Shown piece after piece: positions 54,654 through 57,127 of a DNA stretch of 64,000 bases. The stretch lies in NCBI RefSeq assembly GCF_003938605.1, contig NZ_RHWX01000002.1:248001-312000 (forward strand). The letters run 5' to 3'. The number at the start of each line of letters is the position of its first letter. Position 1 is the first letter of the stretch. Below the pieces are notes generated by a model that did not search any database, was not told the origin of the DNA, and saw only the letters and a program-made list of their open reading frames with translations. Made by a program: the position numbers and the translations under genes. This DNA comes from Brevundimonas sp. 357 (GTDB lineage: Bacteria > Pseudomonadota > Alphaproteobacteria > Caulobacterales > Caulobacteraceae).

Positions 54654-54730
54654 GCGCCCCTAGCTCAGTTGGTTAGAGCATCTGACTTTTAATCAGAGGG
54701 TCCTCGGTTCGAGCCCGAGGGGGCGTACCA
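54654..54730 (+). tRNA. tRNA-Lys (anticodon TTT)
   Basis: 77 nt ending in an encoded CCA. The acceptor GCGCCCC pairs with GGGGCGT (one G-T pair at the end). The anticodon stem CTGA/TCAG encloses loop CTTTTAA, giving TTT. The T arm is CTCGG-TTCGAGC-CCGAG. The 3' end is repeated imperfectly at 56472-56499, so this gene is the probable attachment site of a small island. Confidence 0.97.
54701..54729 (+). repeat. attL: tRNA-Lys 3'-end direct repeat
   Basis: 29 bp inside the tRNA 3' end. Matches 56472-56499 at all but one base plus one missing C. It marks the left border of the inserted segment. Confidence 0.8.
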
Positions 54731-54784
54731 TTTTCCCTTTTCAAAGGGTTAGTGGGCGGTCCCGCTGAAACCGGCGAGGTCATA

Positions 54785-54824
54785 TACAGCGCCATATACA
54801 CTTCTACAGCGCTATATACACTTC
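54785..54824 (+). repeat. 20-bp tandem direct repeat
   Basis: Two adjacent copies (54785-54804 and 54805-54824) of TACAGCGCYATATACACTTC differ at one base. They lie 55 bp inside the left border of the island, where integrases usually have arm-type binding repeats. Confidence 0.75.
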
Positions 54825-55026
54825 GCGTTCGCCCAGCGTTCTTAGCCTTGGCGCGCGTGCGGATCTTGATGACATTGTCAATCTTGTCCTGGGCGGCGTT
54901 GGCTCTTTTCCGGCAGTTGGCCTAGTGGCGGTGGGTTTTCGCTGCGGCTTCTGAGGTCTGCTCCAGCTGAGACATGATCTCGCTGTCTGAGGCGCCCGCC
55001 AGGGCGAACTCCACACCACGGGCATG
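54825..55026 (-). pseudogene. Decayed tyrosine integrase C-terminal fragment
   Basis: Read on the minus strand, a frame runs HARGVEFALAGASDSEIMSQ, then LEQTSEAAAKTHRH, a TAG stop, then ANCRKRANAAQDKIDNVIKI. The ALAG-x-SDSEIMSQLEQTS stretch and the RKRANAAQDKIDN stretch match the C-terminal helix region of phage/island tyrosine integrases. The fragment is preceded in frame by a TAA stop and has no catalytic Arg-His-Arg-Tyr region upstream, so most of the gene is gone. Its position directly beside the tRNA and its orientation toward it are typical of tRNA-targeting integrases. Confidence 0.75.
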
Positions 55027-55125
55027 TTAGCCGCACTTTAGAGGTGGTGCGAACGCAAGGTGAGACTGGAGTATCGTGGTTCAGTGAATTGTATATTTTG
55101 GCATCGCTTTATTTTGAGGTGCCCC
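55027..55125 (+). other. Leader region of the JAMM gene
   Basis: About 100 bp with lower GC than the chromosome. An in-frame ATG at 55060 exists but GAGGT just before ATG 55126 marks the better start. It should hold the promoter; TTGTAT/TATTTT-like boxes are present but not spaced convincingly. Confidence 0.35.
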
Positions 55126-55827
55126 ATGACCGATTCGCCACCAACTGAAGTGGATCCAATTTTTGTCAAGGGTCAGCGTAGAGCGCCTGGCGGAGTTTAT
55201 CCTCCTGTGTCTTCAGGCGGTAGCGGCTTGGGACCAGTACAAGATGAATTAGACCCTAACGGGCCTCCGATTGACGAACCGCATCCGTGCGATGATCCCG
55301 ATAATGCGAGGGAATGGAATGCGGATGCCGCCGCAGCTGAAGCTTTCAGGCGGATAAGAAAATATATCGCCGATCAGATGGATTCTACCCACCATCTCGC
55401 AAACCGAGAGTACGGTGCGATGATATGCGAAAGGCCTAACGGTACATTTTTCATTGGTCCAATCGAGCACGGCCCGCCAATATTCGACGAGATTGGCGTG
55501 CAGCCGGATGGCAGCAATCGGCCATATGTCGATATAAAAATAGATAGTTGTGGTCTTGGCGCTATACCTATTGCAATGATTCACACTCATCCAAGTACTG
55601 GGCCATCCTCTGGAGTGCCGTCATCATCAGATGCTACATGGATTGCCGCTCTAAATGCTCGTCGAAATGATGAATACGGTCGCATTTATGTAGTGGCTAT
55701 CGATGGGGGTAAACATAGAATCGAAATCTATGACAAGACTAATATCAGTGCGGCGCTTACGGGGGAGGTTGGACCGGAGGTTAACCAAAATGGAGTTCCT
55801 TGCCTTGCAGCTGGAGTTATAACGTGA
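55126..55827 (+). CDS. JAMM/DUF4329-like domain protein, candidate effector
   Basis: 233 residues from ATG 55126 (GAGGT 6 nt upstream). The first 60 residues are Pro/Gly-rich (FVKGQRRAPGGVYPP). A helix (65-90) and a JAMM-type metallo domain follow: E95 in NREYGAMICE, H153-x-H155 in IHTHPS and S/D near 168-169 in PSSSDA. This is the E, HxHP, SxxD pattern of JAB1/MPN proteases and of DUF4329 modules on Rhs-type toxins. No signal peptide. Codon use is AT-richer than in the chromosome. Its stop overlaps the next gene by 4 nt. A toxin role is inference; a housekeeping deubiquitinase-like role is unlikely here. Confidence 0.75.
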   Translation: MTDSPPTEVDPIFVKGQRRAPGGVYPPVSSGGSGLGPVQDELDPNGPPIDEPHPCDDPDNAREWNADAAAAEAFRRIRKYIADQMDSTHHLANREYGAMICERPNGTFFIGPIEHGPPIFDEIGVQPDGSNRPYVDIKIDSCGLGAIPIAMIHTHPSTGPSSGVPSSSDATWIAALNARRNDEYGRIYVVAIDGGKHRIEIYDKTNISAALTGEVGPEVNQNGVPCLAAGVIT

Positions 55828-56393
55828 GAGCAATATCGATTTTAATGTTTCTATTTATTGTATTTTTGACTAGTAATGCGCGAGCGAATGAAGGTCAATT
55901 TGAAGATATAGACAAAAATGTATTGCAAATACACGGAAAAACTCCCTTCTTTAGAATGCATGTTGAGGATGTTTTCGAGACAAGATCTATAAACATGTAT
56001 TACTTTGGCAGTAATAAACTTGATGCGCAGTCTGAATCTCGATGGATTGTCGCGAGGTTCGTGCAAAATAAGAATTCTTCTATAACTGAAATTGATTACA
56101 TAGATAGTATTAAATGCGATAGAGTTCATCCTATGTTGTGGGAGCTTTATAGTCTTCGCATTGCATCTTTTGATGTTCCTGGAATTACCCCACCACGGCC
56201 TATGGGGGTGGAATCTCGCGGTATTCCCACGCACGGACCGAGTTACACATTATGGGGAACAGTGACTGATCCTGAGGGAGGGTTTGCCTGGATCAATTTG
56301 AGGCTGTTCGGAGGCCAAGCGGCAGCCTGGGGTGTGCGAGCAGAGGAGTTGCTAAGAGGTTGCTGGCAAAGTTACGAACCATCAGCATTGTAG
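55824..56393 (+). CDS. Secreted protein coupled to the JAMM gene, candidate immunity protein
   Basis: 189 residues from GTG 55824; the GTGA overlap with the preceding stop implies translational coupling. A signal peptide (RAISILMFLFIVFLTSNARA) directs it to the periplasm. The mature protein has two cysteines (IKCDRV and GCWQSY) and aromatic-rich segments, with no domain I recognise. The GC content is the lowest in the window, a sign of recent acquisition. Position and secretion fit an immunity protein for a periplasm-acting effector, but a chaperone, inhibitor or unrelated function is possible. Confidence 0.7.
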   Translation: MRAISILMFLFIVFLTSNARANEGQFEDIDKNVLQIHGKTPFFRMHVEDVFETRSINMYYFGSNKLDAQSESRWIVARFVQNKNSSITEIDYIDSIKCDRVHPMLWELYSLRIASFDVPGITPPRPMGVESRGIPTHGPSYTLWGTVTDPEGGFAWINLRLFGGQAAAWGVRAEELLRGCWQSYEPSAL

Positions 56394-56578
56394 AGATGTC
56401 TGCTGTGTAAGCTTGCAGGATCGCTTTATGCGCCGACATCGGCTTCATACACTTTTGTGAAAATCGGAGGATCCTCGGTTCAAGCCCGAGGGGGGTACCG
56501 CTCCCTTTTCTTCGATAATCAGATCTGATCGCCCTTGCGGCTTGGCTTTTGTTGCGGTTGCGTGATTTAACATCGGTC
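56394..56578 (+). other. Right border of the island
   Basis: 185 bp without a gene. It contains the attR copy (56472-56499), preceded by ACTTTTGTGAAAATCGGAGG, which vaguely recalls the tRNA anticodon arm. A 12-bp perfect palindrome ATCAGATCTGAT lies at 56517-56528, beyond the border. Confidence 0.6.
56472..56499 (+). repeat. attR: imperfect copy of tRNA-Lys 3' end
   Basis: 28 bp matching the tRNA 3' end (54701-54729) with one G-to-A change in the T loop and one missing C in the acceptor strand. Similar CCCTTTTC sequence follows both copies. It marks the right end of the inserted DNA. Confidence 0.8.
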
Positions 56579-57127
56579 ATGCGCTCTCTTGCCTTGTCCG
56601 TCGTCGCCGGTTCTCTTTTGCTTGCCGGCTGCAACGCCGGCGCCTCCGCTCGAGACGGTGTGGATCAGGTGGGGACGGGCCTGGGCGACGCCGTGGCTGC
56701 GCCGCTAGAGGATCTGAACCTCAAGCGTCAGGAAATACCGACCGTTCTGCTGCAGGCGGAATCCAATCCCTATGACGTGCGCAACATGACCCGATGCACT
56801 GTCATCGCCGCCGAGATCGCGCGCCTGGATGAGGCTCTGGGGCCGGACACGGACGCCGCGCCCACCGACGACGGAACCTTCATGAGCGAGCGCGCCGCTG
56901 ACGCCGCCGCCGGGGCGGCGCTGGACGCCGTGCGCGGCACGGTGACGGACTTCATTCCGGCCCGCAGCTGGCTGCGCCGCCTGACCGGCGCCGACGCTCA
57001 CAGCAAGCACGTCCAGTCGGCCATTCAGGCGGGCCTGCGTCGCCGCTCCTTCCTGAAGGGCGTAGGAATGCAGCGCAACTGCGCCCCGCCGGCGGCGCCG
57101 GCCGGGTTCGTTCCGCGTCGCGGCTAG
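56579..57127 (+). CDS. Hypothetical lipoprotein
   Basis: 182 residues from ATG 56579. The lipobox LLAGC (Cys near 18) predicts a lipid-anchored protein. The mature part is mostly helical and Ala/Asp-rich with two more cysteines ([19 protein letters not shown] and QRNCAPP). The [27 protein letters not shown] stretch near the C-terminus may be membrane-interacting. It appears to be a Caulobacterales-specific family; function unknown. GC content returns to the chromosomal norm. Its end overlaps tgt by 4 bp (convergent). Confidence 0.8.

Follow-up and report, generated by a model that had tools for sequence, protein, structure and literature searches.

A 64,000-nucleotide stretch of the Brevundimonas sp. 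357 genome, referred to here as the window, carries between a tRNA-Lys(TTT) gene and a downstream copy of that gene's 3' end a segment best regarded, with support from sequence comparison, as what is left of a site-specific integrative element after its collapse. Within it lie two plus-strand genes, here called T and I. The reading that we favour, with moderate confidence, is that of a collapsed tRNA island whose operon would encode a TonB-imported bacteriocin with a JAMM metal-enzyme domain (T) and a periplasmic immunity protein (I). Taken by itself, the operon is most likely a small bacteriocin gene with its immunity gene. Genomes, contigs and loci of the comparison are cited, where necessary, by our own labels (G, C and L numbers, respectively).

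As we picture its history, a deletion that began inside the integrase gene and stopped short of the final two genes would have left behind the left attachment site (attL), repeats resembling arm-type sites, an integrase stump, a single two-gene operon and a decayed right attachment site (attR). T, released by some route, would then dock on a related cell at a TonB-dependent receptor, presenting its N-terminal TonB-box-like stretch to TonB and thereby being pulled into the periplasm. There its JAMM domain would cleave an amide or isopeptide bond, with peptidoglycan cross-links or an envelope protein, speculatively, as candidate targets. The producer would be guarded by I, which appears from its sequence to be exported, disulfide-bonded and translationally coupled to T. 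The comparisons presented below show the anatomy of the locus, the protein family, its conservation and the likeness of the motif, whereas toxicity, TonB import, the periplasmic target, immunity and release are what we infer.

Protein T and its TonB-box-like N-terminus

Gene T (55126 to 55827, plus strand; ATG at 55126, stop codon at 55825-55827) encodes a 233-residue putative toxin, described as JAMM/JAB-like on the basis of a DUF4329 match, conserved residues and structural matches. The match to DUF4329 (PF14220) has an E value of 2.4e-4 and a score of 21.5 bits, below the curated cut-off of 28.6. When members of the T family were scanned against Pfam at E 0.1, Prok-JAB was matched by 13 of 22 and DUF4329 by 3 of 22, with two weak single hits otherwise; the ColM catalytic domain was found in none of the 22. 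An alignment was made of 22 of the 26 known copies, four split ones being omitted and some others represented by their larger piece only. In it, E95, H153, H155 and Y188 are invariant, while S166 and D169 are kept in 90% or more of the members. The resulting metal-site pattern of E, HxH, S and D is that of JAMM/JAB (MPN) proteins, and is the one listed for Tox-JAB-2 (PMC3482391). The structure model of T has a predicted local distance difference test (pLDDT) value of 81.3. Comparison of this model using VIA-align placed JAMM/MPN chains in the lead, the best having Z 7.8 and a root mean square deviation (rmsd) of 3.5 over 123 aligned residues, and Foldseek likewise yielded Jab1/MPN chains, with a best E value of 2.3e-3. 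One pair of T sequences gives a ratio of nonsynonymous to synonymous substitution rates of about 0.17; between the window and G008, the proportions of nonsynonymous and synonymous differences (pN and pS) in T are 0.29 and 0.79, the synonymous sites being saturated.

A single-sequence search found relatives of T in 23 of 131 genomes of the genus. Across the family, a T profile matched 19 of 299 genomes, in 3 of 22 genera, at E 1e-6, and additionally detected more distant JAMM proteins in G038, G074 and G077 that the single-sequence search had missed. Class-wide, 14 of 385 genomes were matched at E 1e-4: two of the genus clearly and twelve weakly (E 2e-5 to 9e-5), and of three weak matches that were read, two look by eye like RadC. 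With a five-member T alignment, six loci were recovered from named records, five of them from Brevundimonas (B. denitrificans, B. lutea and three metagenome-assembled genomes) and one from a 'Caulobacteraceae bacterium'; the window protein as query found no relative among these records. Carriage of T by a plasmid or phage was considered and rejected, there being no match in plasmids or phages at E 0.001 and no relative of the five-member alignment in viral contigs. Neither T nor I has a match in NCBIfam or PHROGs.

At its N-terminus the model of T shows little order (block means 42-68). This part contains a stretch conserved in the family as D-x-[IV]-x-V-x-G-Q-R-R, which occupies residues 9-20 or thereabouts in the window protein. 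A profile built from 14 T N-termini and run over the 131 genomes recovered 24 T places at E 7.7e-6 or better, the 14 included. A second tier of matches begins at E 2.4e-4, and all 131 genomes match at E 1. Among the second-tier matches listed, 110 of 126 are open frames of at least 700 residues and one is a further T (counted by hand). Inspection of nine second-tier loci gave six with a readable motif, namely five resembling TonB-dependent receptors and one protein with a double-glycine leader; in the five receptor-like cases the match lies just before the plug, two being confirmed by a Plug domain. The genome harbouring the window has 44 Plug matches, of which 30 were fetched and 29 scored for the motif. 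A loose form of the motif precedes the plug in 25 of these 29 receptors, compared with 12.8% of 3,670 control windows, and a strict form in 8 of 29, compared with 6 of the 3,670.

Distant JAMM relatives retain the TonB-box-like stretch behind other N-termini. In three such proteins (L249, L250 and L260, from G038, G077 and G072, respectively) a longer N-terminus is present, with the stretch positioned before a glycine-rich linker. Elsewhere, two tandem JAMM-type proteins (L268:9741-11254, G563:C3) have double-glycine leaders directly before the stretch, and lie some 3 kb from an ATP-binding cassette (ABC) transporter with a C39 peptidase domain. The same arrangement of double-glycine leader and TonB-box-like stretch is seen in a 273-residue frame that has no JAMM match (L277:1064-5348, G015:C17); its gene adjoins those of HlyD and a C39-peptidase ABC transporter, so that it is likely exported. 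Because proteins with double-glycine leaders near C39 transporters carry it, the TonB-box-like stretch is suggested to act outside the producer. The C39 domain was found in only G013, G103 and G120 among 22 T-bearing genomes, and TssK (PF05936), which was detected in the Escherichia coli control, in none of the 22 (the twenty-third, G091, was left out). The idea of T as a type VI secretion system (T6SS) effector was rejected because TssK was not found in these 22 genomes.

Protein I and the reading of the operon

I (55824 to 56393, plus strand) is a 189-residue putative periplasmic immunity protein, judging from its signal-peptide-like N-terminus, two conserved Cys residues, adjacency to T and co-divergence with it. 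It can start at a GTG at 55824 that overlaps the stop codon of T. The N-terminus resembles a cleavable signal peptide by eye and forms the leading helix of the structure model. C98 and C180 are invariant in all 27 aligned members (27 of 32 copies, 5 being omitted). A single-sequence search found I in 12 of the 131 genus genomes, the 32 copies coming from a profile applied to fetched loci. No Pfam family is matched by more than one of the 27 members, and Foldseek gave no match under E 0.001 for the I model. VIA-align placed three Mago nashi/exon junction complex chains first (Z 7.5-7.7, rmsd 3.8-4.7, 105-111 aligned residues), with the next row at 4.2; being under the caution level of the tool, this fold was not used.

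In 18 of 26 T copies, I lies directly downstream. Pairwise distances among T and among I proteins are correlated (r 0.668, a value reached in 0 of 9,999 permutations; L113, whose T is split, was excluded, leaving 17 of the 18 pairs, and shared host ancestry was not corrected for). T itself reads as split or truncated in 9 of 26 copies, some of which may be explained by errors in draft assemblies; breaks were counted in T only and not in I. Six of the fetched stretches, 10-20 kb long, contain nine I genes between them and no T. One locus (L176:3992-6681, G093:C185) has four I-family genes arrayed without T, one of them fused in frame behind an apparent stub of the T N-terminus.

Several points weigh against a TonB-imported bacteriocin and its immunity protein. 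Within T, the N-terminal stretch of the window protein (TEVDPIFVKGQRR) fits the loose receptor motif and not the strict one, many receptors of the same genome read VTA rather than VTG, and neither the model nor the Pfam scan reveals a receptor-binding domain in the 233 residues. Release is hard to account for, as T carries no leader and no C39 transporter is encoded in its genome (lysis genes were not part of the search). The structural Z values of the JAMM matches are below 8, the level under which the tool advises caution for common arrangements. A nuclease activity has been suggested for toxin JAB domains (PMC3482391), and would better fit a cytoplasmic target. As to I, its signal peptide was assigned by visual inspection and from the helix with which the model starts, and the protein is less clearly constrained than T (pN 0.50 and pS 0.84 between the window and G008). 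Finally, 8 of the 26 T copies are without a clear I neighbour, four of these belonging to one subfamily.

One alternative would make T and I an orphan polymorphic-toxin cassette, comprising the Tox-JAB-2 tip of an Rhs/T6SS effector along with its cognate immunity protein, the TonB-box-like stretch then being a linker. DUF4329 does overlap Tox-JAB-2, and is known at the C-termini of Rhs proteins with immunity genes (PMC3482391, PMC10469887). We nevertheless consider such an origin unlikely, given the TssK result above (Rhs genes were not searched for), the mostly free-standing nature of T and the resemblance of its conserved N-terminus to the TonB boxes of receptors.

It is less probable still that T is an intracellular JAMM protease or nuclease, with a role in defence or housekeeping rather than as an exported toxin, I being its substrate or an unrelated periplasmic protein. 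T lacks a signal peptide, as such a role would predict, and one family member (L115) weakly matches JAB models of PADLOC, at best with E 4e-4. Neither T nor I of the window, however, has a PADLOC match at E 0.01, and I looks exported, co-diverges with T and is also encountered without it.

The island and its tRNA-Lys site

The preliminary description of this region had recognised an imperfect repeat of the tRNA-Lys 3' end downstream of the gene, a decayed integrase fragment, a 20-bp tandem repeat and two AT-richer genes between the copies, and a return to chromosomal composition beyond the second. All of these features are borne out here, with the adjustment that the second copy begins at 56468 and not at 56472. 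What the two genes may encode and what the 20-bp repeat may be had not been recognised in that description. The tRNA-Lys(TTT) gene occupies 54654 to 54730 on the plus strand (ARAGORN; Rfam RF00005, 68.7 bits), the attL-side copy being its own 3' end (54697-54729). The attR-side copy (56468 to 56499, plus strand) agrees with it at 30 of 33 positions, with two substitutions and one deletion. Its local alignment score is 52, whereas 500 dinucleotide-shuffled versions of the interval gave at most 26; among ungapped 34-mers it has 8 mismatches to the tRNA end, the next best in the interval having 15. Some 1.74 kb separate the copies, with a G+C content of 48.6% against 66.8% for the window. Encountered in order are the 20-bp repeat, the integrase remnant on the minus strand, then T (50.0% G+C) and I (42.4%). 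The flanking lipoprotein-like gene (56549 to 57127, plus strand), which lies outside the element, reaches 69.9%; it starts either at a TTG 50 bp or at an ATG (56579) 80 bp past the attR-side copy.

Sequence immediately after the tRNA (54731 to 54783, plus strand) is assigned to the left end of the element from its likeness to left ends of elements with a related integrase. It scores 6 to 8 against six of seven such ends and 0.5 against the seventh (G082), compared with -4.5 to 1 against the tRNA flank of four relatives without an element. The flank past the attR-side copy scores best, weakly, against one relative without an element (G055), the comparison being made with a start offset of 2 or 3 bases and the scores rough.

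The minus-strand remnant (about 54817 to 55026) corresponds to the C-terminus of a tyrosine recombinase. It looks inactive, has an internal stop and reads THRH where relatives have IYRR, the position that we take to be that of the catalytic tyrosine. The remnant matches places in 18 of the 131 genus genomes, including its own, and its best match, at 60% identity, is to the C-terminus of a 402-residue recombinase in G119 (Pfam Phage_integrase, 1e-07) that adjoins tRNA-Lys(TTT) and is oriented as the remnant is in the window. Fifteen related integrase genes, not counting the window, are adjacent to a tRNA gene (L144-L160, two further loci having no tRNA in reach); thirteen are at tRNA-Arg(ACG), one at tRNA-Lys(TTT) (G119) and one at tRNA-His (G001).

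The tandem repeat (54785 to 54824, plus strand) consists of 2.0 copies of 20 bp with 95% matches according to Tandem Repeats Finder. Three [TA]TACA[CG] motifs are found in the window at +53, +65 and +85 from the tRNA end, where base shuffles lead one to expect 0.08. The stretch from tRNA to integrase contains a triplet of this motif, spaced at 11 and 12 bp, at 12 of the 15 tRNA-adjacent loci, several of which are near-identical and not independent; of the other three, one has two motifs and two have none. Because this triplet is shared beside related integrases, the tandem repeat is best read as a rearranged set of putative integrase arm-type sites. Right-end arm sites are not claimed: a single ATACAC stands beside attR in the window and none in G119.

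We compared the site in 56 genus genomes besides the window, using 69 loci of which 13 were longer second stretches of the same genomes. The interval ranges from 35 bp to about 63 kb. In 46 of the 56, a single stretch contains both tRNA-Lys(TTT) and the lipoprotein gene, separated by 35 to 10,909 bp as measured to the start of the tblastn match, and none of these 46 has between the two an ungapped copy of the tRNA end better than 13 mismatches in 34. Two are essentially empty (35 bp). In the other 10 genomes, the two genes lie farther apart or on different contigs. G119 has an element of about 45 kb, its second tRNA-end copy starting 154 bp before the lipoprotein match. Two identical copies are about 10 kb apart in G013, in a stretch with 2,204 masked bases, while in G030 some 63 kb separate the tRNA from the second copy, which directly precedes the lipoprotein gene. 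Each of the latter two has near its right end a recombinase with an Arm-DNA-bind_3 domain, that of G013 having a catalytic-domain score below cut-off. In G009, G010 and G098 the lipoprotein gene is preceded by partial copies, on a contig other than that of the tRNA. The comparison of these same-site elements therefore marks tRNA-Lys(TTT), on sequence grounds, as a hotspot for at least two integrase types. Four genomes (L071, L072, L073 and L077) have tRNA-lipoprotein intervals of nearly equal length (6,207-6,228 bp) that are apparently inherited.

A site-specific insertion that has lost its integrase, as had been proposed, is supported by this variable occupancy, the integrase stump and the elements at the same site. 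The expectation that relatives would show empty sites and larger, recombinase-bearing ones was borne out among the 56 genomes compared; it did not extend to a clean empty site in the closest relative. That genome (G014), 93% identical in the tamA-tRNA region, has a 309-bp interval with neither the repeat nor the T-I pair. The interval holds other sequence, and not seeing the exact empty site there counts to some extent against the insertion. Conservation of the pair in all relatives, which had been named as the sign of vertical inheritance, was not observed: the pair is absent from this interval in G014 and, where T relatives occur in 23 of the 131 genus genomes, the lipoprotein gene is in 118.

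Rather than a collapsed remnant, the 1.7-kb unit might be a minimal satellite that a related integrase can mobilise in trans. Both attachment-site copies and the repeat motifs persist, including the ATACAC beside attR. We think this improbable, since the attR copy has decayed, no second copy of the unit is present in the same genome and T has no match at this site in the 56 relatives. That the second tRNA copy is due to chance or an old duplication, T and I being vertically inherited, is very improbable: the two substitutions and deletion in the copy and the other sequence in the G014 interval, in place of a clean empty site, would suit such an origin, but the copy stands well beyond the shuffles, an integrase remnant is present, the site takes up other elements and T is unmatched there in relatives.

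One further T-I pair (L119:7704-8928, G097:C30) has a tRNA-Met gene about 230 bp upstream of its start. Only one tRNA is present in the 20 kb fetched around this pair, where partial copies were not looked for. On account of this pair, association with tRNA genes may extend beyond the window.

Comparison with known systems

Islands of this kind are known; this one is very small. It shares with the G119 element the same tRNA, a related adjoining integrase, tRNA-end copies at both ends and a set of three repeat motifs between tRNA and integrase, and differs from it in having shrunk to 1.74 kb, where a stump of the integrase and a single operon of two genes remain.

For the operon, the closest described design, by analogy, is burkhocin M (PMC4661593). 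As in burkhocin M/colicin M pairs, a small protein, here a putative toxin, carries a conserved short N-terminal stretch, which was proposed there to bind TonB, and the locus is low in G+C, with an adjacent gene, here for a putative immunity protein, that also occurs as an orphan elsewhere. I similarly resembles immunity proteins of the BmiB type, which have a segment serving as signal or anchor and a pair of Cys residues conserved without exception (PMC4661593). In contrast, T has a JAMM/JAB-like domain in place of ColM and no visible secretion signal, while I has no Pfam family of its own. With the Tox-JAB-2/DUF4329 domain of polymorphic toxins (PMC3482391), T has in common the E, HxH, S, D pattern, the prediction as a toxin domain and putative immunity neighbours. 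It departs from that domain in being mostly free-standing, in its TonB-box-like N-terminus, its below-cut-off score, its exported-looking partner and the lack of a T6SS in the T-bearing genomes searched. The two distant G563 relatives, with their double-glycine leaders and nearby C39 ABC transporter, recall export of the class II microcin type; the window T, having no leader and no such transporter in its genome, does not. Caulobacteraceae already have one bacteriocin system in Caulobacter CdzC/CdzD (PMC5380434), which differs in consisting of glycine-zipper proteins that act by contact, are secreted by a type I system and are countered by a small immunity protein in the membrane; the word TonB does not occur in the text of that paper.

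Among the papers listed by a literature search with most subscription journals outside its coverage, none, judged on titles and the starts of abstracts, describes a JAMM bacteriocin of the TonB type. We put at roughly even, or slightly less, the chances of an undescribed Caulobacteraceae class that would combine a receptor-copying TonB box, a Gly/Pro-rich linker, a periplasmic JAMM metallo-(iso)peptidase and an exported two-Cys immunity family, with some members exported by means of double-glycine leaders and an operon that can be the sole cargo of a collapsed tRNA island. If the reading holds, the cargo would be a new variation on a known design, in which a bacteriocin with a TonB box bears a JAMM enzyme as its warhead and is paired with a novel family of immunity proteins. 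Known bacteriocin activities would then be joined by that of a metal enzyme probably acting in the periplasm, Caulobacteraceae would gain a TonB-type bacteriocin family, the I family would acquire a function and the Tox-JAB-2 toxin domain would become testable outside Rhs/T6SS contexts. The island itself would illustrate how far an element can shrink with its competitive cargo still intact.

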